Assembly (NCBI GenBank): GCA_947034885.2
Contig: OX344752.2
Location: 25,734,386-25,798,385, forward strand
DNA length: 64,000 nt
Direction: 5' to 3'
Origin: Thuidium tamariscinum
Lineage: Eukaryota > Streptophyta > Bryopsida > Hypnales > Thuidiaceae
The translations under genes were made by a program, and so were the position numbers. Positions 1-63,593 of the stretch are shown here, piece by piece. Position 1 is the first letter of the stretch. Every line of letters begins with the position of its first letter. The notes under the pieces are model-generated. The model was not told the origin of the DNA. It did not search any database and saw only the letters and a program-made list of their open reading frames with translations.

Positions 1-3000
1 TACAAGTGTTTCACAACAAAATGTTTAGATTTGAATCAATAAAAATAGTGAAGAATGGGCCAAATTTGAATAAGGAACTATTCTAATCAAGTTCTAACAA
101 TTTTGGATTGTGTATATAGTTAATGCTTGAAGGTACTTTTATAGTAGCCATTCACATATTAGCATTTCTTCTACTGTCAAGTAGGGGTCATTTTTGGCTG
201 GAGTAACAAGCATGCCAAGGACAACATTGTAGGGTTCATTGTGAATAAGGAGTTGTGCAAGTTTTTTGTAGCATAATCCCTACACTAAAGAGTGATACAA
301 AGATATCCCATCACGTCAAAATTTGGTTTTGAGAATCCAATGTTTGCCATGAGGCCTACGAAGGAAAGCAATTTAGGTTGCATAGAACATTTAACAATGT
401 ACAAAACTATAGATCTAACAATGTAAAAGATACAACAATATGTAGCAAAAATAAAAATTTCAAAGAAGCTACATATAGAACACTCATAATGAATTATTAC
501 TAAATATAATATAATTCAGGTACTACCTACAATAACTTTAGTAAGTGTCACATCTCTATTCTCTATCAAGTGAAGTACAAAGAAAAATACAAATTCAAGC
601 CAAGCATGCAATGGAATTGCACAAAGGCATTGGTACATATACACATCAAAGCAATGAAGAGAATGAGAAGAAAACCACAAATAGTAGATATGAACAACCA
701 ATAAAGCAAAGACAAACAACCACGAAGACTTCACCTTAGTAAATGTTGTCCATTCAACAAAATTGTTGAGTTTTGGTTGAAGTGAGTATTATATTACTAT
801 TCTTACAATTTATTTGTTGATTTGGCTCTAGTTAACAATATAGTCACAAATTTTTTGCTAGTTTAGATAATGCAATGTCTAAATTCACCAAAAAAATTAA
901 AGATTTTTTAATCATTTTCATTTGACAATTTTTTAATCATTTAAAAATTAAAGATTTTGTATATAAAGTTTTGTTATATGGACTATGCTTAAATGACCAT
1001 GGTTGAAATTCTCTACATAATGGAATTTTTTTTCTTCAATAAACATTCACAATTTAGTTTTTTCTAAACCCAATAGCCTTTGGAGGACATTTCAATATAA
1101 TAAATTATTTTTTTCAAAAAAATTTGAACTATAGAAGGTTAGAAATAAGTTAACTTTCATCTCCAAAAATTAGTTTGTACTTTTGACCTCCCCCCCCAAA
1201 GTTGTGGACAAAATTCAAAGAAGATGCTTGAAAATGTCAAGGAAATTGTTCCTTGCTACCCCTATTTGAATTTTGTTATAACCTTTGATTGGGCATTGAA
1301 AACAAATTTCTGGAGATAAATATTGGTTTGATTTTCCAATGTTTTTTTAGTTCTATTTTTTATACAAAGTTGTTCTATTGTGCCAAAAGTCTATTAAGTT
1401 TCAAAGACACCGATTTGTAAATAGTCAAGTTCAAAAGAAACTACATACATTGTAAAATATCCTTAAGCAATGGTTTGGGAAATCCTATTTTTCCATTCAA
1501 AAGAATTTTAGATACTATAAACTATGGTTGGTAATTTCTTTTGCATAATAAATATTCAATTTCTATACAAATCCAATCAAGTGTACTACATATGGGTTTT
1601 AGAAAAGCAAAACTTTGTGAATGTGAAATAGCAAATTAGATTAAACTACCATTGCTACAACTTTGATCACCCTTGAAAAGGCTTTGGAAATTGACCTTTT
1701 TGTCTAAAACTATGATATGTAGTTGAAGATGCAATGTTTCTTTCAAGCATTCTTCTTTTTGAATATTGCATGCCATTGTGACTAGCTTTTTGCCCCAACT
1801 CCCTAAAAGTAGTGCCAAATACTAAGAGCCTATCTCATATTTGCATCTAAACATAGTAGCATATAATTCTACCTTGTATTCTACTTCTTTCCAAGTACTC
1901 TATTGTCTATTGTGACGGCTTGACATGACCTTTGTGATTCAAAGACTTTGGAAACCTATGGCACTTGGACCATAAAAAGTTAAACATGCACTAAATAAAG
2001 ACTTTTGAATATGTGATAGAAATGCCATCCTCCAATACTTTAAAAATGATCCTTAATTTTATTCAAATCCACCACAACTTTTCAAAAATGGTGAATTTCA
2101 TTGAAATGACATATTCTACTATGCCATTTTCAAACCACAAGGTCTAAACCATAAAAGTCACATTTAGGATAGGTATAGATTTGAAACCATGTAGTATAAA
2201 TTGTAAAAGTGACATCTAAGAAAGGTGTAGATTTTAGACCATCTAAGACATGTGTAGATCTCAAACCGTGCATTCCAAATCCTTAGAAGTGCCAAAGTTG
2301 CAAAATGGAGCCATTTTAATGAAATTTCCCATAAAAACAACTAGTGAGAGGTGAGGAGTTTCTTGAAGCAACCAATGAAAGTTGAGACATTTGTGCTTCA
2401 AGGGTCTACATACAAAGAAAGTCTAGTGTTATATATAAGGCATCCTATATTTTCATCTTTAAAAAATCATAAAAGATTACTAGAGCATCAAAAAAAACTA
2501 AAAACCACTTAAAATGCATCTTTCTTGAGTTCATTAGTAATTTTATCAAAAAAATTGGTCACTTGACCTTTGAGATAGTTGGACAAAAAAAGTGTTGCTT
2601 TTCAATGTATCTAAGGTAGAAGACACCATTCCAAACATATTAGAAAAGTCTCATTTCAAATTGTGTATTAAGAAATACAAAAGACAAATGAAGGAAAAAT
2701 TGCTTACTTTAGGGAATCGTTTGCATGAAATGATGAAAACATGTGTCTAGAATGGGCATAATCTATTCCTTAATTACTCATTGTCATGAGTTTACTTTGA
2801 ATTAGCCTCAAGTCAATGAAAATCAATTCATTCTTGCAATTGAAGTACATATTATAGTTCATATTGAGATCATACAAGAGAAGTTGATGGCAAAACATCC
2901 AATATATATATTACAAGGGAGTCCAATATATACATTTATATTTACACATGTGATTTGTGAAAACCCATTCTCTATAAAAGAAAAAAAGATTCCTATTAGA

Positions 3001-3106
3001 AAAAATGAACCAAAAGAAAAAAATTCAATTCTACCAATGGTTCTTGTTGCTTGTCTACAATGAAAATTTATTTCTTCATTTCTAAATAGCAGTATTACAT
3101 TGCATC
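1..3106. other. AT-rich flank with no supportable gene
   Basis: This is low-GC sequence with many short A and T runs. Every open frame is under about 75 codons and shows no recognisable motif or codon bias. I see no RNA gene and no element with two readable ends. It is best read as old, decayed repeat DNA. Confidence 0.6.
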
Positions 3107-4126
3107 AAGGTAACTACACCTAATTTTGACTAATTTCTAAAAGTGATCACTCTATATTCTTGCCTACAAGGTACTCCTATCGATGAGAATCTACAATTAG
3201 TTTTATGAACCATTAAGGTAGGAACATCCATAACCATCAAAATAAGTACTTCAATAGAGTTGAAGGTATTTTTTTCTAGAAAAAATATTTTTACAGTATT
3301 AGCAACTGAAAATCATGAATTTTCCAAAAAAAAATAAAATTTTTGGACAAGTCATCTAATTTCTGTGAATCTTCAAAGTAGAACTCACTAGGACACTCTA
3401 TACCACACTCTAGTAAATCTACCTTGATTCTCACAACAAAATCTAAAAATTCAGAGTTTACCAATCAAAATTAAGAGTGAGTGACAATTTGGAGGTATTC
3501 TTGAAAAAGATTCAAGGACACTCTACTTATCAATTATGGGTGCAGTAATGGTTATGGATGTTGCTACCTTAGGAGGGATTTGAAGGCAAGAAAGCCCGTT
3601 TTAAGGTTGTCTTCCAACCCACTCCTTGTATTGTCAAATAATTGTGAACTAGCCTTATTGGCTGGATTTTTTTTTAATTCTAAAAAGTGTTTAGAAACCT
3701 AAAACTGAATTAAAAAATTATTTTTTTTCCAAAAAAATATTTAAAAATTAATATTTTTCTAACGTGGCACCCTCTTGACTACATCATATTGCTAATGTGG
3801 CATGTTCCCATACTCCAGGAACTCAAAAAAACTCATAGTCTTCCATTGCCCTCAAATTCCTTCTGATGATCACTATTTTAAGCTCTTAAAAAATTTGTAA
3901 TTTATTCATATGATATTCAAAAACTGCATTTTAAAAGAATCCAGAATTTTCTTTTAACTAAAAATAAGATTGCACCAAAAAATTTCAATGAAATAATAGC
4001 AACCATGTTGAAAATAGGTGTTCTTTAAAGCAATTATAGACTCTCATGAAAAATGAGAATACATTATAGGCAAGAATATTGAATGTGCAATTTTGGAAAG
4101 CATGCAATTTTAGGTGTAGTTACCTT
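3107..4126. repeat. Inverted-repeat-bounded element, about 1 kb
   Basis: The left end AAGGTAACTACACCTAA is mirrored exactly at the right end, a 17-bp perfect terminal inverted repeat. The interior is non-coding and AT-rich. Similar ends (AGGTGTAGTYACCTT) recur near 40040 and, more weakly, near 28650, 46790 and 47845, so this is a dispersed family. The interior segment 3860-3970 also resembles 39880-39990 and 61860-61985. I could not read a convincing target duplication, so the superfamily is unknown. Confidence 0.5.
3214..3571. repeat. Inner inverted-repeat element inside the 1 kb element
   Basis: The left arm TAAGGTAGGAACATCCATAA and the right arm differ at one base in inverted orientation and enclose about 310 bp of non-coding DNA. 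A related arm lies at 49020-49050, directly before a TTAA element. It may be a MITE nested in the 3107-4126 element, or an inner part of it. Confidence 0.45.
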
Positions 4127-4239
4127 ACATTGTTGACATCACCAATAAATTGTGGGGCTCTGATTGCAAATATGAAACCAGAATTTGCAAATTTTATAAG
4201 GTGTGGAAAACAAAGAAAATTCAGCGTTTTCATTCAGGG

Positions 4240-5229
4240 CTCCTGATCTCGGAACTAATCGACGACAACCATCCATTATATCCTCAATGCCACGGAAGGA
4301 AAAACGACATTCATCCATCGCGCGCCACTGAACAGCCGTCTCTCCGTATGCATATCTAATTAAATCCTAGATGAGAATTCCTCAATCTAAGAATACATAG
4401 ATTTCGGAAACACAGCCCTAACGCCTTCCACGGGCGAGCTGCGAAAGTTGCCTCTCACGTCTGTGCAGCAGCAACAGGTTGCGACGGAGTTCCGACTTAA
4501 GTTACTGGCTATTCTTTTCCTCGTGCACGGCCCTAGCTCGGTGCGTTTCTGATCTCTCCATCACTGTTGCTCTCTCTTTTCTCTTTCCAACGAGCTCATT
4601 TTCGATCAAAACGGTATCATCTGCGTCGCATAAGGCAGGCGTTAATGGTTTCGCATTGTTCCGCGGGAGCGGCTTAGGTTTGCTTTTGGCTTAGGTTTCG
4701 TACTTTCTTAATTATCCTCTTTCCTTATGATTGTGTGGATTCTGTCTTGAGGCGCTGTTTGTGTTGTTCGCTTTTGTCGGGGGAAGGGGGAGGGGGGCGC
4801 TGGCGAAAGTCGGGTGCGTTTGGGCGGGATATTTTTTTGAATTCTAGTTTTGTCCTTGGAGTCCGTTCAGGCTTATTGTTAGTTTCAATGCTGGGATTTT
4901 GGGTGCGCTTTGGTAAGGCTTGGGCGGCTAGTCTTGCGAACCGCTTGGTGGTTGTGTAGTGTAGGGTTTTAGGCTGGTGTGTATAGACATCGATTTGGTT
5001 CATGTTTGGCAATGTTTTTTCGCTATTTAATTGATTTATTACCTCGAGTTTTGGGGAAATTTTCTTTTGAATTCGTTGTAGTGAGGATGCTTTCATTTTT
5101 TTTGCAGAGGTTCTGCTTGGGAATTGATTACCTCTGTCTGTCGAATTTTGCAGGGTTTTGAACGGCTATTGCATGCATTGGGTTTTGAGTTGAAAGAAAT
5201 ACAGGAAAGGCTGGAGTAGGTTTGGAAAA
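4240..5229 (+). promoter_or_regulatory. Promoter and 5' leader region of the SR45-like gene
   Basis: GC content rises sharply near 4240 compared with the AT-rich flank, as expected at the start of a transcribed gene. Good splice-acceptor-like sites (pyrimidine tract plus AG) lie just before 5108, 5154 and 5205, so the leader probably contains an intron ending at one of them. I could not pick a donor or TATA box with confidence. The short open frames here lack motifs and are treated as untranslated. Confidence 0.5.
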
Positions 5230-8200
5230 ATGGCAAAACCTAGTGGGAAACCTAAAGCGACATCGCCGTCAGTTACCACAGGATCTTCCTCTTACACGGG
5301 GTCATCGTCGGCATCAGGGTCGAGGTCGAGGTCTCGATCGTCTTCATCTTCTGGAAGTGATACCTCCAGGAGTAGGAGTCCTCCTGCGAAGACAAGGTGA
5401 CTGCTCTGAATTTTATCTTGTTCAAGCCAAATTTCGTGCATTTTTTTTTCTGGATAAGTTGGATGAATATGCACTGTGTTTCGGAGGAGGTATCTCTAGG
5501 TTTGTGTTTGAGATTGATTATTTTAGAGCGAGGAATGGTTCTTCAGGAGATCATGTCCGTTTCGTTCCGACTTGTTTGGGGCTTTAGCATGTAACTATTT
5601 CGTTGTCAACGGTTTTCTTGTTCACTTCGCTCTTTCTAAGTTTAAGAGAACGAATCACCTTATCCTCTTTACATTCATCCGTTCCGGGTGTCCAAGCTAG
5701 GGGCAAAGGAGAAGTGAACCTTTATTGAGGTTGACATTCAAGTGTTTACACGAGAAGAGGTTTTCTGAATTTTACTCTCAGTTTAATGAGTCATAGTGTA
5801 CGAGAGCCTGTTCAGCGAGTAGATCAGTGCTTTCCTACTTGTGGAGATAATAGCTTTTTGGTAAATCTTTGTGATCTTTATGTTTTGTGCAGTGATGCTG
5901 CGGGACCAAAGAAAATCAGATCATCGTCACCCCCACCCAAGAAATTTTCTCCAGTAAAGTAAGCAGTTCGTTGAATCCATCAGTGCAGACTCTTTTCGAT
6001 AAGGAAATGAGAACTCTGAATCGGTACCTGGTTCTTAGTCCTGATTGTATTTCTCTTTCTTGAATGCACATCATTTTGTGAACTTATCAGCTTATTTGTG
6101 AATTCATCTTTGTGCACATTTTGAATCGCAGGAAATTACGCACTCCAACTCCCGAGTCTACTGTATTGCATGTAGGTTGTCTTACTCGGAATGTGAATGA
6201 GGCGCATCTGAAAGAAATCTTTGGTATGTGTGCTGAGCTCTTCTCTGTCTCCTTGGCACGTACTTAAGAGTGTGTTGAAGAAATCTTTATTATCTGCTGC
6301 TTTATACTGCCCGGAGATCACACGAAATTGGGCTAGCAAACTGTGTTGATTTACGTCTCCTCATTCTTTTTAATTATGGAGCGAATACACACTGGCACGG
6401 TGCAGGAATTTATGGGGATGTCGTTAATGTGGAGCTGGCTATGGATCGTACTGTAAGTCTTCTATTTTCAATTCTTACATGTTGCGAATAAAGTTTATGG
6501 CTTATCATTGAAGAGGCCACTCCCTGTTGTGTTCGCTTCTTTGTTTTCCTTCTCTCTATCCCCTTCCTTACCTAAACTTAGTTTCGTTCGTGCAGGTTTG
6601 CATCTGTACAATAGTAGATATTATGTTGTTCCGCAGATTGTCGGCGGCTCTAGTATTACTTATCAGCGTGCAGTTTGACCATATTGCATTGCTCGATGCG
6701 TTGTTTAAATTGTAAATGTTTGGTCTCAGAGGGATTGTTCTGTTCATGGTCATAGGAATACATCTGATGTTTTGATGATATAATGAACAGGTGAATTTAC
6801 CCAAAGGATATGGATATGTTGAGTTCAAAACAAGAACCGATGCTGAGAAAGCGTTGTCGCATATGGACGGGGTTCGTGATCTCAGCTACTAGGACGGAAT
6901 TCCATTCCTTGTTGTGATATGAGTTCAGACCTCTTTAGATTTTCTAAATGATTCGTGGTCTAAAATTATGGTATCGTTAAGTCTAAGCTATTCGCTCGAG
7001 CGCTTGTTTGTAGTGACTGGTAGTGCGCTATTGCAGGCGTGCTAAAGTATTTGTCATATTATTATATGAAGTTTGATGCAAGTCTTTCTTGTTTTCTGTC
7101 TTCGTGGAAACACTGGGAATTTCTTTCGAGGTGCCAAACAGCTAGGAGCCAGACTAGTGAAGACGATGACGACAGTAACACAAAGTGGGTCATCACGATG
7201 CAGGGTCAAATTGATGGGAACATTGTGAGTGCTCAGTTCATTTTGGTGCCGAGAAGGAAGGCAACTCCCCCTCCTTTAAGGAGAGAGGTTTCACCTCCTC
7301 CTCCGAAGAGGGAAATAATGGGGCGAGATGTGCCTGCACGTGATGGTCTGAAGGATGGTCCACGCCGGCGTGATTGTAAGTGATATTCTTCAGTTTTTTC
7401 TGTTAGATATAATTTTTGTCATCATCTAGATGCAAAAGTTTTTCAAGAAGTCTTTTGGGCTCACACTCATTGTGAGTCGAACATGTGCCCTCAGCTCCGC
7501 CAATCCGTAGGGGACGATCGCCCTCACCTCCCCCTAGAAGGAGAATGGCTGATTCACCACCCCGTAGGCGGCCTGCCGTGGCGTCTCCCCCTCGCCGACG
7601 GTCTCCTTCCCCCTTCCGTCGACGTCGTTCACCTATCAGGGATATCAGGTTTGCTATTCTTAGACTAAGCGAATTGTTGACTTAATTTGATTATTTTCCT
7701 CAGGGGGTGTCTAACTGTTTTTTTCTCATTTACTCAGATCGCCTCCTAGGAGAATTAGAGGCAGTCCTGTGCGACGTCAACGTTCTCCACCACCATATAG
7801 AAGAAGGTTCGTTATGCTGATTGTCTTGACTGCATCTGAATTTAGTGATTTTTGTTGTTGTGAACAGTGTACATTATAGGGTGTGTTTGTCATGGGATAT
7901 CCATAACCAATGGCGAGTGAATGTATTCAAAGTCAGGGCTAGTCATTATTTCTCATCGACTCTTCTTGGCATAGGAGTATCCTGACGGGAAGGTAAGGGT
8001 GTGAAGTACCAGTCAGTACCTTACATTTTGACTTTTTAATGTGTGCAGAAGTCCTCCACCCGGGAGACGCGCGAGGTCACCCCCTCGCCGATCTTCACCT
8101 CCAAGACGTCGCATCAGCAGGTCTCCTCCGCCTCGTCGACCAGTTCGTTCAAGATCTCGTTCAGCTCCAAGGAGGTACGAGAATCGGCTGTCCTGGTTGG

Positions 8201-10861: not shown

Positions 10862-11522
10862 CTAATCCCCTAAATGCCCAAGGCACCAAAATCTGGAGTT
10901 TGCAAAACTACGAAGTTATATAAAACTTAACCAAGTTGTTAGGATTTTATATTTGGGAAACTTCTTTTTTAAGCCCCAAAAGCATTTTGAGCATAAAAAA
11001 TCCAATCTTTTAAATGATTGATTATGATTTTTTTATTCAAGATTTTGTCCAAAGGTATCCATTGCAAATTTGCAATCTTGGCTTTTTGTAGTGTTGAGGG
11101 CTCTTGAAAATTAATCTCAAATATACTAGATCTTGAAGAAGAAATCACATTAGAAATTCATTTTTAAAAAATTGTAAGATAGATTTTGAAAAGCCATAAA
11201 TTGATTGGGTAATGCATATTAGGCCCTTCAACCTCATGTTTTTTGGAGACCAAATTTTTAGATTTGACATGTGAAAAGAAGATTGAAAGACTTCAAGTCA
11301 CTTTTGTAGTTTTAACACCTTCATAATCAAACATTATAATTTTCAATCTATAAATATCATTGTTGTGTTTCCTTTTCCTAAGTAATCTCTAGTATGTCCA
11401 CTTTAAATTTGTAAGGTTAGATTTTTTTTAAATTGTTAAAGCTTATCAAAATGTTGGCTTTTTCTTCAATTTAAAGCAAATTCCTAGAAGCTCAAAAAAG
11501 GCCTTGGACATTTAGAGGTTAG
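10862..11522 (+). mobile_element. Family E TTAA element, uninterrupted copy
   Basis: Begins TAATCCCCTAAATGCCC and ends GACATTTAGAGGTTAG, a degraded inverted-repeat pair of the TTAACCCC type. Its roughly 660-bp interior is collinear with the interrupted copy at 40627-44513. It therefore serves as the empty-site reference: it reads an uninterrupted TTTTAACACC near 11310, where the other copy carries a B element. Non-coding. Confidence 0.75.
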
Positions 11523-11687: not shown

Positions 11688-13440
11688 TTAACCCCTATAA
11701 GATCAAGGCCTTTTTTCACCAAAAACATTCAAAACTGTCATTTCTATTCCAAAGATTATAAAAATTTGAACATTATTATTTTTTGACATCTAATCACACA
11801 GGTTTATACTCAACTAGTATGAAAATGTGTAGAATAAATTCAAAAGTTTTGACTGTACAGATTGCAAGATATCTACATTTAAAGTAAAAAAACAAGTTCT
11901 TTTGTACATTGTAGGACTAGATTATTTGACTCTAAGCCTTTTTAACCCCTAAAGGACCATTGTCCCCTCGGGGGACAATTTGGAGTTCGGGCAGGTTCCG
12001 TAGACCTCAATTTTTAATGAATCTTTTTGAAACTTTCTCATAATATAGGAAAACCGATTAGCTTCATGGGAATGTAATTTTTATTTCAATTGGTGACCGG
12101 GAGCAAAAGTTATACCACAAAAAGCCCAAATTTTCATTTGGCGGGCAGAAATTTTTTTTGCAAAAAGTCAAAATTTTTTTAATTTTTTTTTTTTTTCTAA
12201 AATAATATATTTTTGCCTACATGTGAAGCTTTGATTCACTCTATTTGGACTTATAATGAGAAAGTTATGGACAATCTTGTTTTTCGGGCAATCTAAACAA
12301 TTTCTTGAAAAAATAACTTATAGGATTCATTTTTGAATGCAATTTTCACAATTTTTCAAAAACAATTGTTGGACAAGGTTATGTTTACTTTCTAGAACAA
12401 TCTCACCATTGGGATTATTGTATTTCAATCCCATCTTAGAGTTATTAACCATTTAGTTTTTCTTTCAATCTTGGACCTACATCTACTTAACAATTTTTTA
12501 AAGAATGAAAATCAAGTGTTTTTTTGTGAAATTTTTTTCCTAGACTCTCAACTCAATTTCTTAACACAAAAAATTATAAATTCAAAGTCTATAGTGCAAT
12601 TTTTTAATACAAATTCCAGTCAAAGTCATCTGAAATTGCAAACCACAGTTCAAAAAAACTTATATTTCCAATTTTGAATGCTCATATCTTCCAATCTGTA
12701 CGGTCAAACTTCATGAAATTTTTACCACTTGATCTCAATCAAGTTAAGTACAAGATCCTACGGTTAGATTCTTAAAAAAAATATTTTTTGTTTTCTTGGA
12801 TGAATGCAACAGAAATGGCAGTTTTGAGAGGTTTTTGACAGAAAAAAGGCCTTGGTCCTTTAGGGGTTAAGTTGAATTTTTTGAACTATAAAGTATTGAG
12901 CTTTAAATCTTTATTGTAGAAATTGAATTGAGAGTCTAAGGACAAAAAATGAATTCAAAAAACTTAATTTTCTTTCTTAAAAAAATTGTCATATATGAGT
13001 AGGTACAAGATAGAAGGATAGTTCAAACTATTAATATGTTTAAGATGGAATTAAAATGCACTAATTCCAATGGTGAGATTGTTCTAGCAAACAAACTGCA
13101 CCATACATTAAAAAAAAATTTAATTGTAAAAATTGCATTTTATACATGAATCATACAAGTTATTCTTTCAAAAAGATGCAACTATGGACAATCTTGCATG
13201 AAAAACAAGATTGTCCATAGCTCTCACATAACTTATTCAAATAAAATAAATCAAAGCTTTTGATGTAGACAAAAATATAATTTATAAGAAAAAAAAATTC
13301 AAAATTCAAAATTTTGAAATTTTTTTGTTAACTAGTGTCTATTATTTTGAGCTTATTTGGACATAACTTTTGTTCATAGAAGATAATTAAAAAATTTCAA
13401 CACTTCCTCTTGTCTAAAGTAATATAAACAAGACCATTGA
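11688..13440 (-). mobile_element. Family B TTAA element (outer, degraded), split by another B copy
   Basis: Starts TTAACCCCTATAAG. The interior matches family B in reverse orientation on both sides of the inserted copy at 11944-12870: the segment with a Cys-free AT-rich core before it, and the AATTCCAATGGTGAGATTGT segment after it. The far end is decayed around 13440. Non-coding. Confidence 0.6.
11944..12870 (+). mobile_element. Family B TTAA element, intact ends
   Basis: Runs from TTAACCCCTAAAGGACC to GGTCCTTTAGGGGTTAA, with a TTAA at each edge. A perfect palindrome, TTGTCCCCTCGGGGGACAA, lies about 20 bp inside the left end. The roughly 925-bp interior has no transposase-like frame, so the element is non-autonomous. 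It lies inside an older B copy. Confidence 0.8.
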
Positions 13441-22306: not shown

Positions 22307-22526
22307 TCTGTCCGGCAAACTGCTTTTTGGACTTAGAATGGCATAAATTTTGCTTCCAAGCACCAATTGAAATAAAAATTATATTTTTGGAAAGCTAATC
22401 TGATTTCCTATCTTAAAAAAAACTCAAAAAATCATAACAAAAATTTAGGTCACACAAGCTTGACCAAAATTCCAAGTGTCCCTCGAGGGGACTTTAGTCT
22501 TTTAAAGATTAAGCCTAACAAGATGA

Positions 22527-22755
22527 TTAACCCTAAAACGTCTCAATCCTTTTTTGAATTTTTGCACATTTTCATTTAAAGCTTTGTACAAATATATCAT
22601 TTACCAAAATTTAATGAATTTGGTCATTAAGGAAGGTTGTCTCTTCTAGATTCAAGTGTTACATTTGATAAATGAGAAATTAATTGGATGAAATAGTGCC
22701 TCAAAGCCCTCTGTTCATCATCCAGAATATGGACGTCAGAGTGCTTCAGGGTTAA
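22527..22755 (+). mobile_element. Family F TTAA element, short uninterrupted copy
   Basis: Runs from TTAACCCTAAAACG to CTTCAGGGTTAA with TTAA at both edges, only 229 bp. Collinear with 45165-45394 and with the split copy 62464-63593. It reads CATTAAGGAAGGTTGTC near 22623 without interruption and so supplies the empty site for the A insertion at 62573. Confidence 0.8.
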
Positions 22756-24061
22756 GTAGGGGTTAGAGATTTGAATGTATACTACATGTTAATCTAACAA
22801 ATGTCCCTATGCATGATAAGCATCTAGGTATATATATAGATGAAACCCTAATGACAGGAAGTGTCTATACACACCCTCAATTGAAGATTGGTGAGCTAAT
22901 TTGGTTTATATAGATCATGATTCTTGATAGTCACAGGAGCAGGATGGCCTACATGGAGATGAATCAAATGCAATTGCTAAGGGAACTTGTCAGATCCGGC
23001 AATGTTGCAACATTGGTGTTGTAGATCTTGTTTGTTTTGTTTCCTTGGTTGAAGAAGTTGTATTTTGACATAATGCACACAATAATTGAAAAGTATGCGG
23101 GCACAAAGGATTATTACAATAAGTGTATGGGCAACAAAGCTCAACATCAATCCCATACAAGGTTTTGGGGTCATATTGGGAGACTACAAGTTCTTGAACT
23201 GTGGGAACTCGATGAAATCTGTTCCACAGGTGATCTAATGTGGCAAAAAGACTGCCACATCAAATAATAGTATTTTTAATTTTTTTTCAATTTTTAATTT
23301 TAATTTTTTTTTAATCTAACCAATAGTGACTGGTTCACAAATTGGGGAATTGGATTGAAACAATATCTTAGTACCCTAGAAAAACTCTTCTAGAGATAGG
23401 TGTAGAAGCAAACACTATTAGAAGAATGAATGTTTTATGACTACAAAATATGACTGCAATGAGTCATAAAATCTTAAAATATGATTCATGCCAAAATCAC
23501 TATAGATGATTTGAAACATGAATGGGTTCATTCATTACCAACAAGTTGTATTAGACATTAGTCATATTAGCATTCATATACATTAGGAAGTATAATTAGC
23601 CATAACTAGCTATTTTTTGCCAATGTGGTGTTTAAATTGACCAGCTTTAGAGGCTCGACTTTCTCTTGAAGTGCGTAGGCTGAAAGAAAAATAGCCTATG
23701 TGGCATATGAATCCATCTAAACAAATTTTTGGTTGACGTGGCATATGGATTTGTGCCCTCATATATTTTAGTGCTAAGAAAGGTAATTCTTGTAAATCAT
23801 ATTTTTAATGTTGTAAGAAATGACTCTTATAAGTTATATTTTTTGTTGATGTAGAAAATGACCACTCTGAGTTGTATTTTTTTGTTGATGTGAAATATGA
23901 TTTTTGGATGATGTTGTAGTTTAAATGAAATGTTATTAATAATTTTATGATTGAATGTAGTCATTTCTTCAAAAATTTGGAGTTACATTTATAGGATGAC
24001 TATGAGCATAATGTAACTACAACTAGTGATATTTTGGCCAAGATATATTATAAAATATTAC
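22756..24061. other. Intergenic stretch without a recognised gene
   Basis: 22900-23270 is slightly GC-richer and has an open frame of 79 codons (23028-23267, +) with no motif that I recognise. The remainder is AT-rich. I see no element with two readable ends. Confidence 0.4.
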
Positions 24062-24906
24062 TTAACCCCTAAGCGCTCAAACGACCATTTTCTGGTCGCT
24101 GCCTGACTTCGGGCAGAATTTTCGGGCAAAAAAAAACTTTTTTCAAAATATTTTTTTTTCAGTTTTGAAAAAATTGGGTTTTCTTTCAACATTGATATTC
24201 AAAACTAAGATCAGTACAGTCAAAAAAAAGTTATAGCAAAAAAAAGGAGAAATAGTACAAAGTGTCTAAAATTGCATAGTGTTGAAAAAATTACTAATTG
24301 GGGGAAGTACTAATGCTCTCAGTAGTAAATACTTTTTATTTTTTAACAAGTCAATAAAAACCACAATTTTGACCAATCAAAAAACATTTCAAATCATAAA
24401 AATAGAAATTGTATTTTTGGTGAATTTTTGAAGTTATATCTTCAAAATTTATTTGAAGAGAATCTATAAATATTTTTTAAATTTTGATCATATAGATACT
24501 TTCTACTTTTTGTGCTTTACATTATCTTTTTTGATGCTAACTTCAAAAATGTTGTAAAGCTTATATTTTATAACACATTTGTATTTTGTCTTAATCTCTT
24601 TGGCTTTTAGAGGTTGAATATTTTACATTTTTTTATGAATCAATAAGAAACACAATTTTGACCAATCAAAAAAAATTTCAAATCCTAAAAATAAAAATTA
24701 TATTTTTGGTGAATTTTTGAATTTATATCTTCAAAATTCATTTAAAAATAATCTAAAAATATTTTTTTTACTTTGATTGTATGGATACTTTCTACTTTTT
24801 GTGCTTTACATTATCTTCTTTGATAATAACTTCAAAAAAGTTGTAACACGTATATTTTATAACACTTTTGTGTTTTGTCCTAACCCCTTGGGCTTTTAGG
24901 GGTTAA
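24062..24906 (+). mobile_element. Family C TTAA element with internal tandem duplication
   Basis: Runs from TTAACCCCTAAGCGCTC to GGCTTTTAGGGGTTAA. The left end carries palindrome-like GACCATTTTCTGGTC and CTTCGGGCAG. The interior contains two tandem copies of a roughly 289-bp unit (about 24331-24610 and 24620-24895), marked by CACAATTTTGACCAATCAAA in each. Non-coding; the only C copy in the window. Confidence 0.75.
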
Positions 24907-26292: not shown

Positions 26293-27242
26293 AATAACCC
26301 CTAAAGGACCAAACTGCGTTTTTTGGCAACATAGCGATTTCGGGCAGCTCATTACAGATGGAGTTTTTGGTTTTATTCTTTGAAATTTTTACACAACATG
26401 TGCCCAAGGAGTATCTTTAAGGCCCAATAATTTTCATAACTTTTGACTACATAGTGAAAAAGTTATTGGCTGATATGTATTTTCTCTACTCAGTGGGCAG
26501 CCTGGGCAGAAAAAAAACTTCTTCAAAAATTATTTTTTTAAGAAATTAAAATTTGAAATTGGTTTCTTTTATTTTTGTCTAAGTGGAAACCTTTGAATCA
26601 TTCCATTTTGATTAATGAATCAAAAGTTATGAGGATTTTTAGTTTGAGGTAGTTTCGGCTAGTTATAAGATCTCTACACTACAAAAAAAGTTTGAAATTC
26701 TTTATTTAATTCAATTTTTAATATTTTTGAAAAAAAATATAAACACTGGATGTATATTGTTTAACACAACATTACAACCATTGGGATTGTCTTCTTCTAA
26801 CTCTATAAATAAATTGTTAATAGTTTAGTATTTTGGCTCATTTTCTACTTCTTTCTACTTACTATTTTTTTACTATATGTTGTACAATTTCAAATGATCT
26901 GAAAATTTCAAGCATGTAGCCAACTTCACTTGAAAAATTAATCCAAAGAGTTACAATCATTTTGGACATTTTTCCACACAAATATGGTCTTCTGAAGTGC
27001 AGCTGCCCGGATTTCCGCAGTGGTAAAAAAATGTTTTTTGTCACTTCAAGCACTAATCTCTTGCAATCTACGCGGTGGAAATTTCTGAAATTTTTTCCAC
27101 ATATTCTTAAACATGTTTTCTAAAAGATCTTACGGTTACTTTTGTCAAAAAAAAAAAATTCTAAAAATTTGATAGTTGTCTAAAAAATGACAGTTTTGAA
27201 GCGTTTTTGGTGAAAACATAGTCAAAAACCTTTAGGGGATAA
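26293..27242 (+). mobile_element. Family A TTAA element, uninterrupted copy
   Basis: Begins ATAACCCCTAAAGGACC and ends CCTTTAGGGGATAAG; the target tetramers are decayed by one base. The interior reads GGCTAGTTATAAGATCTCTA where the 17730-20204 copy carries the Mutator-like insertion, so it is the unoccupied reference for that site. Non-coding, about 950 bp. Confidence 0.8.
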
Positions 27243-40626: not shown

Positions 40627-41514
40627 TTAATCCTCAAATGCCTAAGACACCAGAATTTCGTGTTTCAAAAACTTTGAAGCTAAATAAAACCTAATCAAGT
40701 TTCTATTTTCAATATTTTCTATTTTTGGAGAGTCCTTTTTGAAGTCTAGTTTAACCCCTAAAGGTTTTTGACTATGTTTTTACCAAAATTGATCCAAAAT
40801 TGTCATTTCTAGGAAAACTACCAAATTTTAGAAAAAAAACATTTATGGAATAATGCAACTATAGGATCTTTTAGTGCACAAGTTTGAGAAGATGTAGAAA
40901 AAATTTCAAAAATTTTCACCATGTAGATTGCAAGATAATAGTGTTTGAAGTTACATAAATCATTTTTTTACCATTGAGAAAATTCAGGCAGTTGCGCTTC
41001 AAAAGGCCATACTTGTATGAAAAAATGTTCAAAATGTTTGTTACTCTTTGGATTCAATTTTTCAATTCAAGTTGGCTACATGTTTGAAAATTTTCAAATC
41101 ATTTGGAATTGTGCAACATGTACAAAAAATTAGTAAGTAAAAAGAAGTAGAGAATGATTCAAAATACTAAATTGTTAACAATTTATTTATTGAATTGAAA
41201 AATGCCAATCCCAATGGTTCAAATGTTGTAATAAACAATCTACACCCAATATTTTGATGTTTTTTCAAAAGTATTGAAAATTGAGTAAAATAAAGGACTT
41301 CAAGGTTTATTTTAGAGTAGATAATCCATAACTACCCGCAAACTAAAATTCCTCATAACTTTTGACTCATTAATCCAAATGGGATGATTCAAAGTATATA
41401 TAGATCTATAAAACCAATTGAAAATTTTGGTTTAAGAAAATGATTTTTTATTTGCTCGAATTGCCTGAGTTGAAAAATAAACAACATATTATGCGATAAC
41501 TTTTCAACCACGTA

Positions 41515-41956
41515 TCAGGGACAGACTTAAACATAACAGAATGGAGAGAGAAATCTCCAACAGATATAGAACAAGAGTTTGTCTAATAACCAGATGTATT
41601 TCAAATGACAGAGGTACACGAAGATGACTCAGAATTCGAGCTGAAGTCAGATGCTATGAACTAGAGATCGAAACGAGTTGTTGAGATTGAGGAACTCCTT
41701 AGCCTCGACTCGTACTTATACTAGAAGATGTCAGGTGTTTCTAGAAGCTTCTTCAGCAACTTTTATCTATCAGGAAGCTTCTTGAGGAGCTTCCACAAAC
41801 TTGAGAGCTTCTTGAGCTACTTCCATCTAAGAGGAAGCTGCTTGAGGAGTTTTCTCGAGATTCTAGGAGGTTCCAGGAGGTTCTACAAGGTTCCAGAAGG
41901 TTCCATGAAGTAGAAAGCTTCAAGAGAAGCTTCTTCTATCTTCTTATGTCTGCGAC
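41515..41956. mobile_element. hAT-like insertion, 442 bp, with 8-bp target duplication
   Basis: ACCACGTA (41507-41514) and ACCATGTA (41957-41964) flank it, one mismatch. Its ends TCAGGGACAGACTTAA and GTCGCAGACATAAGAA (reverse complement) pair only partly. An 8-bp duplication plus a CAGGG-type end suggests hAT. The right half is a dense run of GAAGCTTC and GGTTCC motifs (see 41740-41940). Confidence 0.6.
41740..41940. promoter_or_regulatory. Cluster of heat-shock-element-like motifs in the hAT-like insert
   Basis: Repeated inverted GAAnnTTC pairs (GAAGCTTC at least four times) and one three-unit match TTCcaGAAggTTC at 41891-41903. That is the nGAAn/nTTCn spacing bound by heat-shock factors. 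The motifs sit in a short-period tandem repeat, so they may be coincidental to repeat expansion. Confidence 0.45.
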
Positions 41957-42020
41957 ACCATGTAGTCAAATGTCATGAAAATTGTTGGACTTTAAAGATT
42001 CTCTTCATTCACACCTTCTA

Positions 42021-42952
42021 TTAACCCCTAAAGGACTGAAGTCCCCTCGGGGGACACTTGGAATTTTGGGCAAGCTTGTGTGACTTGAATTTTTTATATT
42101 ATTTTTTGAAACTTTTTTTGAAGATAGGAAATCAGATTAGCTTTCCAAAAATATAATTTTTATTTCAATTGGTGCTTGGAAGCAAAAGTTATGCCATTCT
42201 ATGTCCAAAAAGCAGTTCGCCGGGCAGAAAAAAAAAACCACAAAAAAAATTTTTTTTTTATTTTTTATTTTTTTTCTTGAATATTTTGTTTTGTTCTACA
42301 TCTGAAGCTTTGTTTCATTTTATTTGGACTAATAATGAGAAAGTTACAGACAATCTTGAATTTTGGGCAATCTAAGCACCTTCTTCAAAAAATAACTTAC
42401 AGAATTCATTTTTGAATGCAATTTTTTAAAATTTTTAAAATTTTCTTTTTTGATAGGGTTTAGGATGTTTGCAAGAACAAGCTCACCGTTGGGATCATGG
42501 TTTTTCAATTCCATCTTAAAGTTATTAACAACTTAGTGTTTTGTTCAATCTTGGACCTACTTCTACTTAACAATTTTTTAATGAATGAAAATCAAGTAGT
42601 AGTTTTTTGAAATTTTTTTCCCTAATTCCCAACTCAAATTTTCAACATAATAAATTTTAACTTCATGGTCCATAGTGCAAAAAAATTCAACAAATGGCAA
42701 TCAAAGTCATCTAAAATTGCAAGTCAGAGTTCAAAAAAACTTTTTTTTCCAACTTTGAATGCTAATATCTTCCAATCAGTACGGTCAAACTTCATGAAAT
42801 TTTTACCATATGATCTCAGACAAGTAATTTACAAGATCCTACGGTTAGATTCTAATAAAATTGTTTTTCTTGTTTTTTTGGGAGGATGTAGCAAACATGG
42901 CAGTTTTGAGTGGTTTTCAAGCCAGAAAATGCCTCAGTCCTTTAGGGGTTAA
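42021..42952 (+). mobile_element. Family B TTAA element inside the A element
   Basis: Runs from TTAACCCCTAAAGGACTG to CAGTCCTTTAGGGGTTAA, TTAA at both edges, 932 bp. The subterminal palindrome GTCCCCTCGGGGGAC is present and perfect. The interior is collinear with 11944-12870 and has no coding frame. Confidence 0.85.
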
Positions 42953-43361
42953 AGTTTGGTTCCAAAACATGGAAATCTCTAGTCACATGTACCTCCCCAA
43001 AATCGCTAAATTCCAAAAAAAGGCATGTTGGTCCTTTAGGGGTTAAGCATCAAAAACCCAATCATGAAAATGATTGGTTATGATTTTTCTATTCAAGATT
43101 TTGTGCAAGGGTATCCATTGCAATCTTGACTTTCCATAGTCTTATGGACTCTTGGAAACGAGCCTCAAATACATTACATCTTGGATACAAAATCACATTA
43201 GAAATTCATTTAAAGAAATTATAGAGTAGATTTTGAAAAGCTATAAATTGATTGGAGTTATGCATCTTGGGCCCTTCAACCTCAAAAGTTTTTTGGTGAC
43301 CATCTTTTAAGATATGACATGTGAAAATAGGATCAAAAGACTTCAAGTCACTTTTCCAATT

Positions 43362-44292
43362 TTAACCCCTAAAGGCCCACGGCCGTTTTTCAACCCAAAA
43401 CCACTCAAAACTGCCATTTCTGCTCCATTCATCCATGAAGAACAAAAAAACTAAAATTTTAGAATCTAACCATAGGATCTGGTACTTTACTTAACTAAGA
43501 TCATGTGGTGAAAATTTCATGAAGTTTGACCGTATAGATAGGAAGATATGAGCATTCAAAGTTGGAAAACAAAGTTTTCTTAAACTCTAGTTTGCAACTT
43601 CAAATGACTTTGTCCTCCATTTATGTAATTTTTTTGCACTACGGACCTTGAATTTAAATTTTTTTCTATTGATAAATTGAGCTAAGAGATTAGGAAAAAA
43701 AATTCACAAAATAAAGACTTTTTTTTCATTCTTTAAAAAATTATCAAGTAGATGTAGGTCCAAGATTGAAAGAAAAACTAAATTGCAAATATCTCATAGA
43801 TGGAATTGAAACACAATAATCCCAATGGTGAGATTGTTCTAACAAACAAAATCAACCTTGTCCAACAATTTTTTTTGAAAAATTGTGAAAATTGCATTCA
43901 CAAATGAATCCTATAAGTTATTTTTTCAAGAAGATGCTTAGATTGCCCGAAAAACAAGATTGTTCATAACTTTCACATTACTAATCCAAATGGAATGAAT
44001 CAAAGCTTCACTTGTAGACAAAAATAAAATCTATAAGAAAAAAAAATTAATTTTTTAATTTTGAAGTTTTTGTAGATTTTTTTTTCTGCCCGGTGACATG
44101 AAAATTATGTTGAAGATGGCATAACTTTTGCTCCCAGTCACCAATTGAAAAAAAAATAATATTCCCACAGAGCTAATCGGTTTTTCTATCTTATGTAAAA
44201 ATTTCAAGAAAATTCATTAAAAATTGAAGTCACAAATACCTGCCCGAATTCTTAAAGTCCCCCGAGGGGACTCTTGGTCCTTTAGGGGTTAA
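43362..44292 (-). mobile_element. Family B TTAA element inside E, reverse orientation
   Basis: Runs from TTAACCCCTAAAGGCCC to GGTCCTTTAGGGGTTAA. The E sequence reads CCAATTTTAA before it and TTAACACCCTCATG after it; the uninterrupted E copy reads TAGTTTTAACACCTTCAT near 11310. This gives a clean TTAA duplication. The palindrome GTCCCCCGAGGGGAC lies near the right end. Confidence 0.88.
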
Positions 44293-44513
44293 CACCCTCA
44301 TGATCAAACATTATAATTTTTCAATCCATAAGTAATAATGTTGTGTTTTCTTTACCTAAGTGATCTTCAACACATCTAACACATCTAGTTTGAATTTGTA
44401 CGTGTATAATTTTTAAAAATTTGATTAAACACATGTGAATTTTGACTTTTGTTCACTTTAGAGCAAATTCCAAGAAGCTCAAAACAAAACTAACTTGGGC
44501 ATTTAGGGGTTAA

Positions 44514-44977: not shown

Positions 44978-45550
44978 CAGTAGAACCTCTCTTGCTTGAC
45001 CCTCTCCAAATCAATAAACCTCTATAGGAGAGGGTTCTAAAACCGAGTGGGCTTTTGCAACCATTCACTAGGGGCTCTGAAATGGACATGCGAACTTTGG
45101 AAAAATGAACTCTGGATTATAATGAAGCTTCATGAGATTTGTTATTATTTCTTCAATGGATGGTTTAACCCTTAAGCGTCTCAATCCTTTTTTGAATTTT
45201 TGCACATTTTCGCTTATAGCTTTGTACAGATATATCATTTACCAGAATTTAATGAATTTGGTCATTAAAGAAGGTTGTCTTTTCTAGATTCAAGTATTAC
45301 ATTTGATAAATGAGAAGTGAATTGGATGAAACCGGGCCTTGAAGCCCTTTGTTCTTCGTCCAGAATATAGACGTCGGCGCGCTTTCACGGTTAAGAACCA
45401 CACTTGGTTCATTCCTAACTAAGTGGCTAGGTGTCTACTAATTTAATTCAAAATTAGAATTCATTGTTCAACCACCTTCTTACAAGTATTGGAAAATCTG
45501 AAATAATGATTAAATCAAGCATTCATTTCAGATTTGGAGAGGTTCTATTA
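44978..45550. mobile_element. pogo-like MITE (Tc1/mariner type), split by an F element
   Basis: The left end CAGTAGAACCTCTC and the right end, whose reverse complement reads TAATAGAACCTCTC, are inverted. TA lies just outside both (44976-44977 and 45551-45552). CAGTAGAACC-type ends are typical of pogo/Tigger relatives. The F element at 45165-45394 sits inside. Non-coding. Confidence 0.65.
45165..45394 (+). mobile_element. Family F TTAA element inside the pogo-like MITE
   Basis: Runs from TTAACCCTTAAGCGTCTC to GCGCTTTCACGGTTAA, 230 bp, collinear with 22527-22755. TTAA at both edges. It contains GAATATAGACGTCGGCG, where the other copy has a mutated form. Confidence 0.8.
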
Positions 45551-46069: not shown

Positions 46070-46715
46070 TTGTATGATTTCTAACGTGTCTAGTTTGAAT
46101 TTAAATTTGTATAGTTACAAACCAAAAAAATTGACACAATTTATCAAGATGTTGTCTTTTTGTTGAATTTGGAATAAATTTCTAGAAGCTCAAGAAAGGT
46201 TTTGGACATTTAGGGGTTGATAGCACTTATAGATTAAAAGATCATAATGTTTTGTTTATGAGGGTGTTAAAACTATGAAAGTGATTTGAAGTCTTCTAAT
46301 CGTCTTTTCATATTTCAAATCTAAAAATGTGGTCACCAAAATAGTATGAGATTCAAGGGCCTAACATGCACAATCCCAATCAATTTCAGTCATTATCAAT
46401 ATCTACTTTAGTTTTCTTTTTCTAATGTGTTTCTAATGTGAAATTTTCTCCAAGTTTTACTGTATTTGAGGCTCATTTCCAAAAAAACCTTAGCACTATA
46501 GAAAGTGAAGACTGTAATGGACACCTTTGTATAAAATCTTAAATAAAAAAATCATAATTAATCATTTTCAAAATTAGATTTTTGATGCTAAAATTAGACT
46601 TCAAAAAATTAAAAATATAAACTACTAAAAATAGTAAATAGGTTAGATTTTTTTAACTTCAAAGTATCATCAACTCCAAAATTAGGTGTCTCAAGCATTT
46701 AGGAATTATAATGGA
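46070..46715 (-). mobile_element. Family E TTAA element with an inverted terminal segment
   Basis: 46224-46715 is family E in reverse, ending in CTCAAGCATTTAGGAATTAT. 46070-46222 is the last roughly 150 bp of the same family, but in forward orientation, ending GGACATTTAGGGGTTGA. The pair reads as one copy whose end segment was inverted. It gives the unoccupied form of the site used by the A element at 40751. Confidence 0.65.
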
Positions 46716-56689: not shown

Positions 56690-58520
56690 GAATTTTCAGT
56701 GCAGCCAACTTTGACACCCTCCCGAGAGTTGAAAAATTTGAATTTTAACACGAAAGTTTTACCACATCATCATCTTTATGTTAATAAGACGTGTACCAAA
56801 TTTCAAGGCCAAAAGATTGACTAAAAAAAGTTATTCAAAATCTACCAACATGGATAGCTATGGAATTTTTTTCACTTTTGCCAACTTTGATAGCCCTCTA
56901 AGGATTGAAAATTTGTTTTTTGCCATGAAATTTTTGGAACACAAGTTACTCTATGCTAATAATATATATTCCAAATTTCAAGCCCAAAAGATCAATACAA
57001 AAAAAGATATTCACAATCTACCAATATGTGTTACTTTGAGAAACACTTGAGGAAACCATTTCACTATTGCCAACTTTGACACCCTCCCAAGGATTGAGAA
57101 ATTGTCTATTTACCATGAAATCTTTGTCACACAATACTCTCTATGTTGATAATATATATGCCAAATTTCAAGGACAAAAAAGTCTTACAAAAAAAGATAG
57201 CTTTGAGAAACCATTCCTCTATTACCAACTTTGACACCCTCCTAAGGGCTGAGATTTCTTTTTATTTATCATGAAATTGTTGGCACAAGATCTTCTCTAT
57301 GTTAATAACATGTGTGACAAATTTGAAGGCCAAAAAATTTATTAAGAAAAAAAGATATACACAATCTACCAACATGTGTAGTTGTGGGAAACAATGGAGG
57401 AAGCCATTTCACTACTACCAACTTTGACACCCTCCAAGGGCTGAAAAATTGTCTATTTACCATGAAATTTTTGGTGCAAGATAAAATTTATGTTAACCCC
57501 TAAAGCCTTGAACTCCATTTTTTGGCAACACAGCGATTTCGGGCAACTCACTACAAATGGAGTTTTTATTTTATTTTATTTGAAACTTTCATACAACATG
57601 TATCTAAGGAGTAGCTTTAAGTCCCAACAGTTTTCATAACTTTTGACTACATAGTGGAAAAGTTATAGCATGATATGTTGTTTCCTTTTAATGTCAGGCA
57701 ACCCAGGCAACAAAAAAAACTTCTTTAAAAATTGCTTTTAAAGAAAATAAAAAATTGAAATTGGTTTATTAGATTTTTATCTATGTAGAAAACTTTGAAT
57801 CATTCCATTTCAATAAGTGAGACAAAAGTTATGAGGAATTTTAGTTTGGAGTAGTTTGCAGGTAGTTTTAGAATCTCTACTCTACAAAAAGTTTGAAATT
57901 ATTTATTTAATTCAATTTTTAATATTTATGAAAAAAAACTAAAAAATTGGGTGAAGAATATTTATTACAATATTTTAACCATTGGGATTGGCATTTTTCA
58001 TTTGTATGGATAAATTGTTCACAATTTAGTATTTTCAAGCATTTTCTACTTCTTCCTACTTACTATTTTTTTCCTATATGATGTACAATTCCAAATGATT
58101 TGAAATTTTTTGAGCATATAGCCAACTTGCATTATAAAATGAATTCAAAGAGTAACCATAATTTTGATTATTTTTTTCATACAAATGTGACCTTATGAAG
58201 TGCAACTGCTTGGATTTTTGAAGGGATAAAAAAGGATTTTTGCTATTTCAAATGTTAATATCTTGCAATCTCTGCAGTGCAAATTTTTGAAATTTTTTCC
58301 ACATCTTTTTATACCGCCTACCCACAAGATCCTATGGTTAATATATCAAAAAAGTTTTTTTTCAAAAAAATTGCACTTGTATTAGATATCACAGTTTTTG
58401 AGTGATTTTGGTGGAAACATAGTTAAAACTGGCCTTTAGGGGTTGATAACAAGTGTGCCAAAATTCTAGGTCAAAAAATTTATACAAAAAAAGATACACA
58501 CAATCTACCAATGTGTATGT
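56690..58520. repeat. Tandem array of about 155-195-bp units, split by an A element
   Basis: Units begin near 56703, 56880, 57068, 57224 and 57417 with CCAACTTTGACACCCTCC (one copy altered). Each contains CATGAAATTTTTGG, TATGTTAATAA, CCAAATTTCAAGGCC and ACACAATCTACCAACATG or close variants. The last unit is cut by the A element at 57493-58446 and resumes at 58447. Non-coding array adjacent to the Tc1 relic. Confidence 0.85.
57493..58446 (+). mobile_element. Family A TTAA element inside the tandem array
   Basis: Runs from TTAACCCCTAAAGCC to GGCCTTTAGGGGTTGA. The array reads TTTATG before and TAACAAGTGTGCCAAAAT after; uninterrupted units read CTATGTTAATAACATGTGTG. This shows insertion at the unit's own TTAA, with the right tetramer later changed by one base. 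About 954 bp, non-coding. Confidence 0.85.
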
Positions 58521-62463: not shown

Positions 62464-63593
62464 TTAATCTTTGAATGCCTCAATCTTTTTTTTAATTTTT
62501 TGCACATTTTTGCTTATAGAGTTATAGCTTTGTATAAAAAAATCATTTACTAGAATTCTATGAATTTGATCATTAATCTCTAAAAGACCAACATGCAAAA
62601 TTTGGCAACATAGGAATTTTGGACAGGTACGTGTGAGTGAAGATTTTCATATTTTGCTCCCAAATTTTAATAGAAGGTGGAGACAAGGAATATCTTTGAT
62701 GTGTAATAAAAATTAGGGAATTTGGAAATATGAGTCAAAAGTTATCACTTAATATCTTACTTTTTTTGTAATTGGGCATTTCAGACAAATTCGAAAAAAT
62801 CATTTTTTTCAAAAACAAAAATTTGAAATTGGTTTTCATCACTTATGTATGCAAGGAAAGCTTTGAATCATTCCATTTTGATTAGTGAGTCAAAAGTTAT
62901 GAGTTTTTTGTAGCAATTATGGATTCTCTACTCTAAAATAAACTTTGAAGTCCTTTATTTTAGTCAATTTTCAATATTTTTCAAAAAAGAAAAAATCATA
63001 GAATGTGTATTGTTTATTACAATATTGCAACCATTGGGATTGGCATTTCTTAATTTCATAAATAAATCATTTGCTACTTCTTTTTATTTACTATTTTTTT
63101 CCTATATGTTGTACAATTCTAAACAATTTGAAATTTTTTAAGCAAATACCTTATTTGGATTCAAGAATGAATACAAAGACGCATAAATATTTTGGACCAT
63201 TTTTCATATAATTTTTGCCTTCTAAAGTGTAGCTACCTCGTATTCTGTATGGTGAAAAAAAAATTTGAACATTGAAATGCAAATATCTTGCAATCTACAT
63301 GGTGAAAAACTTTGAATTTTTTTTCACATGTTCACAAACCAATTAACTACAAGATCCTACAGTTATAAATCTAAAAAATGTTTAAGAAAAACAGCTTGAT
63401 ATTGGTACTAAAAATGGAATTATGTGACCAATTTTGGAGTAAACATAGTCAAGGAACATAAGGGGTTAAGGAAAGTTATCTTTTCTAGATTCCAGTATTA
63501 CATTGAATGAATGAGAAGTGAGTTGGACTATATAGTGCCTTGAAGCCCTCCATTCATTGTCTAAAATATGGATGTCAAAGCCCTTGAGGTATA
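62464..63593 (+). mobile_element. Family F TTAA element split by an A element
   Basis: Begins TTAATCTTTGAATGCCTC and ends near GCCCTTGAGGTATAA. The parts on each side of 62573-63469 are collinear with 22527-22755 and 45165-45394. The break falls exactly at the CATTAA of those intact copies. Confidence 0.8.
62573..63469 (+). mobile_element. Family A TTAA element inside F
   Basis: Runs from TTAATCTCTAAAAGACC to AACATAAGGGGTTAA. The F sequence reads TTTGATCATTAA before and TTAAGGAAAGTTATC after, against TTTGGTCATTAAGGAAGGTT in an intact F copy. Clear TTAA duplication. The interior is a diverged family A copy, non-coding. Confidence 0.85.

Follow-up and report, generated by a model that had tools for sequence, protein, structure and literature searches.

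Does the 64,000-nucleotide stretch of Thuidium tamariscinum DNA analysed here (the window) hold a direct record of one transposon insertion, and, if so, which kind of transposon made it? The question is raised by a short element, B, which interrupts one copy of a repeat, E, with TTAA on both of its sides, and by a second copy of E in the same window that carries a single TTAA at the same place. A sequence-only reading of the locus had taken this pair as proof of target duplication by a cut-and-paste DNA transposon with strict TTAA targeting, had named a base-by-base alignment of the two E copies as the check, and had held that breaks away from TTAA in most copies would count against it. The features discussed below are collected in Table 1; numbers preceded by L denote loci fetched from the genome.

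Table 1. Coordinates of B, of the E copies and of related elements in the window.
Feature	Position	Strand	Basis
B element with both TTAA copies	43362..44292	+	Alignment to empty E; 40 scored relatives, 97-100% identity
Left TTAA target copy	43362..43365	.	Sequence
Right TTAA target copy	44289..44292	.	Sequence
Terminal inverted repeat CCCCTAAAGG	43366..43375	+	Sequence
Terminal inverted repeat CCCCTAAAGG	44279..44288	-	Sequence
15-bp palindrome GTCCCCTCGGGGGAC, bases 18-32 from tip; putative cysteine-rich-domain site	44257..44271	-	
E copy 2, interrupted by X and B; ends resemble TTAA-flanked tips	40627..44513	+	
E copy 1, unoccupied; site is TTAA at 11312-11315	10862..11522	+	
E copy 3, empty at B site (46225-46472, TTAA) and X site (TTTA)	46220..46704	-	
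X element (other TTAA family) within E copy 2, itself hosting a B copy	40751..43046	+	
Second B-family copy, at TTAA in X; TTAA empty sites in L048, L022, L001	42021..42952	-	
Third B-family copy, at TTAA in another B-like element; TTAA empty sites in L002, L003 (one overlapping locus pair) and L039	11942..12870	-	
X-family element, TTAA left/TTGA right; empty sites in neighbouring repeat units and L041	57493..58446	+	
X-family element; empty sites 45163-45375 and 22524-22756 read TTAA	62573..63469	+	
X-family element, ATAA on both sides	26294..27242	+	Departure from TTAA

Occupied and empty copies of E

E copy 1 (11000-11522) was aligned globally to the part of E copy 2 that lies downstream of its other insertion, X (43050-44513), with costs that permit a single long gap; of the many alignments tied for the best score, the first was used, and the gap position can slide across the duplicated TTAA. 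The alignment held a single long gap, at which 11311/11312 meets 43361/44289, between the paired blocks 11236-11311 (43286-43361 in copy 2) and 11312-11339 (44289-44316 in copy 2). This gap measures 927 bp, one TTAA less than the 931 bp of 43362-44292, and the remaining internal gaps were of 1 to 9 bases each. The empty copy reads ...CACTTTTGTAGTTTTAACACC... and the occupied copy ...CACTTTTCCAATT-TTAA-(element)-TTAA-CACC.... On this alignment the earlier account of TTAA duplication between occupied and unoccupied E copies in one window is correct to the base, B appearing as one long gap at the TTAA. The stretch it called a 931-bp element was delimited correctly, but that figure counts both TTAA copies, the element proper being 923 bp (43366-44288).

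The B site is also empty in E copy 3, cleanly and with TTAA (46472-46225), and in L042, noisily and with TTTA (3384-3156). For a chance baseline, TTAA begins at 485 of the 64,000 window positions. The pair of E copies proves insertion with target duplication, and the "cut" half of cut-and-paste, excision, would follow from the family to which B is assigned below. That a TTAA transposon duplicates its target is textbook behaviour, and it is well documented here.

TTAA at other insertions

Joined flanks with one TTAA were compared to the window and the fetched loci for 26 sites in total, made up of a first set of 17 (the three window B-family copies, L044-L054, L003, L039 and L040) and a second set of nine new sites. 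Empty paralogues spanning the site were found for 8 of the 26 (4 of 17: 43362, 11942, 42021 and L051; 4 of 9: 40751, 57493, 62573 and the L057 element), and seven of these eight testable sites had TTAA in register in at least one empty paralogue. TTAA was present in two of three spanning matches at 43362, in six of seven at L051 (the remaining one reading ATAA), in all three at 62573 (two distinct places) and in the single match to the site of L057, a 5.2-kb transposase-bearing element (empty match in L051, 72% identical). It was kept in only three of eight spanning matches at 42021 and in only four of nine at 57493. At 11942, four gap-free rows read TTAA (L002 twice, L003 and L039), one of the L002 rows being the same place as L003, and junction gaps or changes were found in most of the weaker matches to other B-like elements. 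The X site at 40751 gave TTAA in none of three matches; the empties read TTTA, TTGA and TTCA, in repeats 72-77% alike.

Seven of nine paired window elements carried TTAA/TTAA, one TTAA/TTGA (57493) and one, the X-family element at 26294-27242, ATAA/ATAA, which looks like a 4-bp target duplication of another sequence. For CCCCTAAAGGCCCACGGCC, the right-end 19-mer that marks the close subfamily of B, there were 43 exact occurrences genome-wide, 42 of them preceded by TTAA; the lone exception, the L053 copy, reads TTAAACCCC, with one extra A at the tip. Because one window element has ATAA on both sides, TTAA targeting is strong and not absolute, and the word "strict" in the sequence-only reading is slightly too strong, as the extra A in L053 also indicates. 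B is right to be called a TTAA-targeting DNA transposon because of the seven of eight sites, the 42 of 43 right tips, and the piggyBac DDE transposase (PF13843) of larger elements with matching ends (see below).

Several other repeats were seen in the window. A tandem array with units of ~175-190 bp occupies 56693-57480, and some of its units contain the TTAA at which the X element at 57493 sits. Two head-to-tail units of 288 bp, 86% alike, lie at 24328-24904 and have the ends CTTTTAGAGGTTGA and CTTTTAGGGGTTAA; palindromes like GAAGCTTC are abundant at 41700-41960, inside the X element. GNAT and SPC12 domains are present in window frames.

Copy number and age of B

TTAACCCCTAAAGG occurred 8526 times (4286+4240) in the 363-Mb genome (19 contigs), compared to 0+2 for a reversed control. 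A DNA search with B returned 6678 candidates, of which 40 were scored and were 97-100% identical to B over the full or nearly the full length. In the window and the fetched loci, 18 full-length rows, some of them one place fetched twice, had TTAA on both sides, with the exception of the left side of L053. Twelve close B copies (the window copy and L044-L054), which are the best-scoring 12 of the 6678 candidates and not a random sample, differed from one another by a mean of 0.94% (range 0.1-1.6%), so at least one burst of B was recent; their left flanks were unrelated (at most 24 of 60 bases agreeing). The other window B-family copies are older, at 77-82% to B. Since the E copies are 74-80% alike, compared to the ~1% that separates close B copies, B arrived long after the E copies split, as a young element within an old repeat. 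Four B copies on the same strand (C3:40739530, 40760825, 40782120 and 40803415) are spaced by exactly 21,295 bp, which suggests a tandem segmental duplication of ~21.3 kb.

piggyBac transposases of the genome

A genome search with the piggyBac transposase domain (PF13843) returned 659 candidates, at least 116 of which scored above the curated cut-off, and the best 30 loci fell into eight groups (65% identity, single linkage). The frame of L055 belongs to the domain family at 2.1e-79 (267.8 bits, cut-off 22.4), and L018, L033 and others belong to it also. The catalytic aspartates D429, D518, D636 and D639 were invariant in five of five aligned transposases, as were C734, C737, C754, C760, C765 and H770 of a C-terminal cysteine-rich domain recognized by sequence only. 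Among the 30 loci, simple patterns found GVDxxDQ in all 30 and the DN motif in 27 (absent from L014-L016), and the DE motif was off-register in L033.

One of the eight groups contains eleven loci (L020-L030) whose identity to L021 is at least 99.9% across some 4 kb. Wider stretches around two of them revealed a common 5.1-kb element, which has TTAA, tips reading CCCTGAAACG/CCCCTAAACG and an open frame of 1023 aa; all eleven copies have TTAA at the visible end and different flanks, which points to very recent activity of this family (L020-L030; L039:2144-7239). In the left flank of L022, the 5.1-kb copy directly follows a CCTTTAGGG tip, which would fit an insertion into the edge TTAA of another element. 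Two observations concern other genes. An open frame beside the L055 transposon (L055 8811-9998) matches AP2 weakly, at a score under the cut-off of Pfam. Domains of NAM (PF02365), a land-plant and streptophyte family, gave 27 exon-level matches, corresponding to 14 genes and one weak piece, and none in 14 control genomes.

Partners of B

A partner was found in a transposase group other than that of the 5.1-kb family. This is the L055 element (5143 bp, 1928-7070), with an open frame of 774 aa whose best solved relative is piggyBac (6x67, 8.9e-33). B 1-315 and 836-931 match its two ends at E values of 1e-27 and 3e-9 (319 bp at 69% and 99 bp at 75%), and the window copy at 42021-42952 matches both ends at 2e-43 and 1e-26, with alignments of 106 bp at 83% and 308 bp at 73%. 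L057 is a second copy of this type (97.5% identical over 5.2 kb) and L061 a third (95%), with its left tip just outside the fetched stretch. In L058/L060 the two ends, separated by 6,453 bp, both carry CCCCTAAAGGCCCAAG, and the left one matches B at 85% over 99 bp (B 835-931). TTAA was found at both ends of L055, L057 and L058/L060. The L058 frame has two in-frame stops despite B-type tips; the frames of L055 and L057 are open, yet their tips, CCCCTAAATG and CCCCTAAGTT, differ from those of B. Perfect B-type tips and an open frame were not found together in one element among the fetched copies (58 scored of 885 candidates), and one may be present among the 885. No match to the middle of B (about 316-835) was found in L055, L057, L058, L060 or L061 at E 1e-3.

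B has both ends in common with a transposase-bearing element and no gene of its own (an open-reading-frame scan found no frame of at least 130 aa in 43362-44292), and shows the TTAA duplication and the inverted tips beginning CCC (CCCCTAAAGG at both ends) of piggyBac. It is a miniature element without a gene from the piggyBac family, whose members are numerous in this land-plant genome and in part very young; having no transposase, it needs one in trans.

Other candidates were set aside as partners. The 5.1-kb family (L039/L040) was rejected because it has CCCTGAAACG/CCCCTAAACG tips and because its element in L039 (2144-7239) does not include the B matches there, which are at 250-940; L041 gave no end match; L042 matched two B-family copies at the right end only (123 and 107 bp, 70-71%); and L059 matched in the transposase core, with no tips found in the fetched stretch.

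The transposase that mainly moves B could instead belong to another piggyBac clade of this genome with nearly equal tips (e.g., of the L042 or L056 type), which we consider unlikely. The tips of several clades are only one to three bases apart, the right tip of L056 is identical to the last 19 bases of B, TTAA included, and L042 gives the right-end matches described above. Against this, both-end matches to B were found only with L055, L057, L058/L060 and L061 (its tip cut off) among the wide-fetched loci (L039, L041, L042 and L055-L061), a comparison that is incomplete, the second end of L042 not having been located. Cross-mobilization by the L042 clade is conceivable.

Sub-terminal palindrome

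GTCCCCTCGGGGGAC lies in B and its partners at bases 18-32 of one end, or one base nearer. A genome pattern search allowing 3-15 bases from tip to palindrome returned 671 places, and the spacing was 7 or 8 in all of those listed (about 100, the first part); this uniform spacing could be explained by shared descent alone. More telling, palindromes of other sequence share this centre in end families that are not related, namely GACCATTTTCTGGTC at window 24062 and CGCCAATTTGTGGCG in L039 and L041. The end at 24062 (+ strand) is that of another TTAA family, with a CCCCTAAGCG tip and its palindrome at bases 18-32.

Dyad symmetry was scored along 21 representative ends, clustered at 60% from 38 collected. 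The mean score peaked at base 25.0 (z 3.9; maximum reached in 2% of 300 shuffles), in a test that is exploratory because it was devised after the pattern had been seen and because some of the representatives are still related. Another peak, at 19.0-19.5 (z 3.4 and 3.1), is unexplained, and for centres 24-25.5 the score stayed below 7 in 12 of the 21 ends. piggyBac has a palindrome at bases 17-33 of one end, to which the C-terminal cysteine-rich domain of its transposase binds as a dimer (PMC7351741), and the centre found here, at bases 24-25, agrees with that position. By analogy, the cysteine-rich domain may bind the B palindrome near base 25.

Origin of B

B is very probably a young non-autonomous (MITE-like) land-plant piggyBac element, whose ends were bound and joined to TTAA by the transposase of a larger relative of the L055/L057/L058 type. 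Such a transposase would bind B at its CCCCTAAAGG tips and, in one end, at the palindrome near base 25, and would join both ends to a staggered TTAA target, repair of which would leave TTAA on both sides. The same outcome is described for piggyBac, in which hairpin-processed ends are joined to unpaired TTAA (PMC7351741). This reading draws on the TTAA duplication, the ends shared with transposase elements, the conserved catalytic residues and the near-identical dispersed copies; mobilization in trans by the L055-type clade and hairpin-mediated seamless excision are inferred.

Three further explanations concern the empty sites and the superfamily. The empty E copies could be precise excision scars and not ancestral empty sites, in which case the pair would show excision; since piggyBac excision is seamless (PMC7351741), such a scar would look identical. 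With two E copies cleanly empty, a third noisily empty and one occupied, and with B far younger than the split of these copies, scars are very improbable. B could come from another TTAA-duplicating superfamily, e.g., Kolobok, as piggyBac is not alone in leaving TTAA target copies and TTAA by itself does not decide the superfamily. This origin was set aside as having hardly any likelihood, because the elements that have both ends in common with B carry PF13843 transposases, to which piggyBac is the best solved relative, and a CCC start is typical of most piggyBac tips (PMC10813416). The occupied/empty pair lies in a nest of repeats, where assembly error or recombination between repeats could have produced it, but TTAA breaks that recur at sites on several contigs and TTAA before 42 of 43 tips leave this practically without credit. 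The preferred reading is that of a piggyBac MITE moved by an L055-type transposase.

Relation to known systems

The elements described here resemble piggyBac (PDB 6x67/6x68; PMC7351741) in the TTAA copies, the aspartate order, the C-terminal Cys/His domain and the position of the palindrome; they differ in their land-plant host, in their frames (527-1023 aa stop to stop, compared to a 594-residue chain) and in their length of about 5.0-6.5 kb, and B itself is gene-less. Insect and angiosperm piggyBac MITEs are likewise short, gene-less and of high copy number, whereas this genome also contains elements that have their ends in common with the MITE and carry open transposase frames. piggyBat, a bat element, was also compared. 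Its structure (PDB 9c0f) matched the frame of the 5.1-kb family at 3.4e-27 and the L055 frame at 2.1e-22, with matches that span the core and a C-terminal stretch that aligns weakly.

PiggyBac is counted among seven MITE superfamilies of angiosperms (PMC10004981), and piggyBac is said to be isolated from plants (PMC10813416). The annotation of the fern Ceratopteris richardii lists 1230 PiggyBac pieces, 122 kb in total (PMC6890710), so that piggyBac in a seed-free land plant has a precedent, there as annotated pieces. piggyBac is widely used as a transposon for seamless editing (PMC7351741), and in the plant literature searched it also appears as an introduced tool (PMC10794571). piggyBac in plants is therefore not new as a statement, and the scale and youth seen in this land plant are what is notable. 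No description of an intact, near-identical or active native land-plant piggyBac was found in the open-licence literature searched, which is not proof of absence.

We propose, tentatively and at somewhat less than even confidence, that this genome hosts a large, still active native piggyBac radiation, in which several transposase clades with open frames and their own tip codes, and in several end families a dyad site ~25 bases from one tip, drive bursts of MITEs that are often nested. If true, this would be the first naturally active plant piggyBac system. The near-identical 5-kb copies and the ~1%-diverged MITEs offer native pairs of transposase and ends, together with a natural series of ends in which the reading of palindromes by the cysteine-rich domain can be studied, and occupied/empty pairs such as that in E allow insertions within one nest to be ordered in time.
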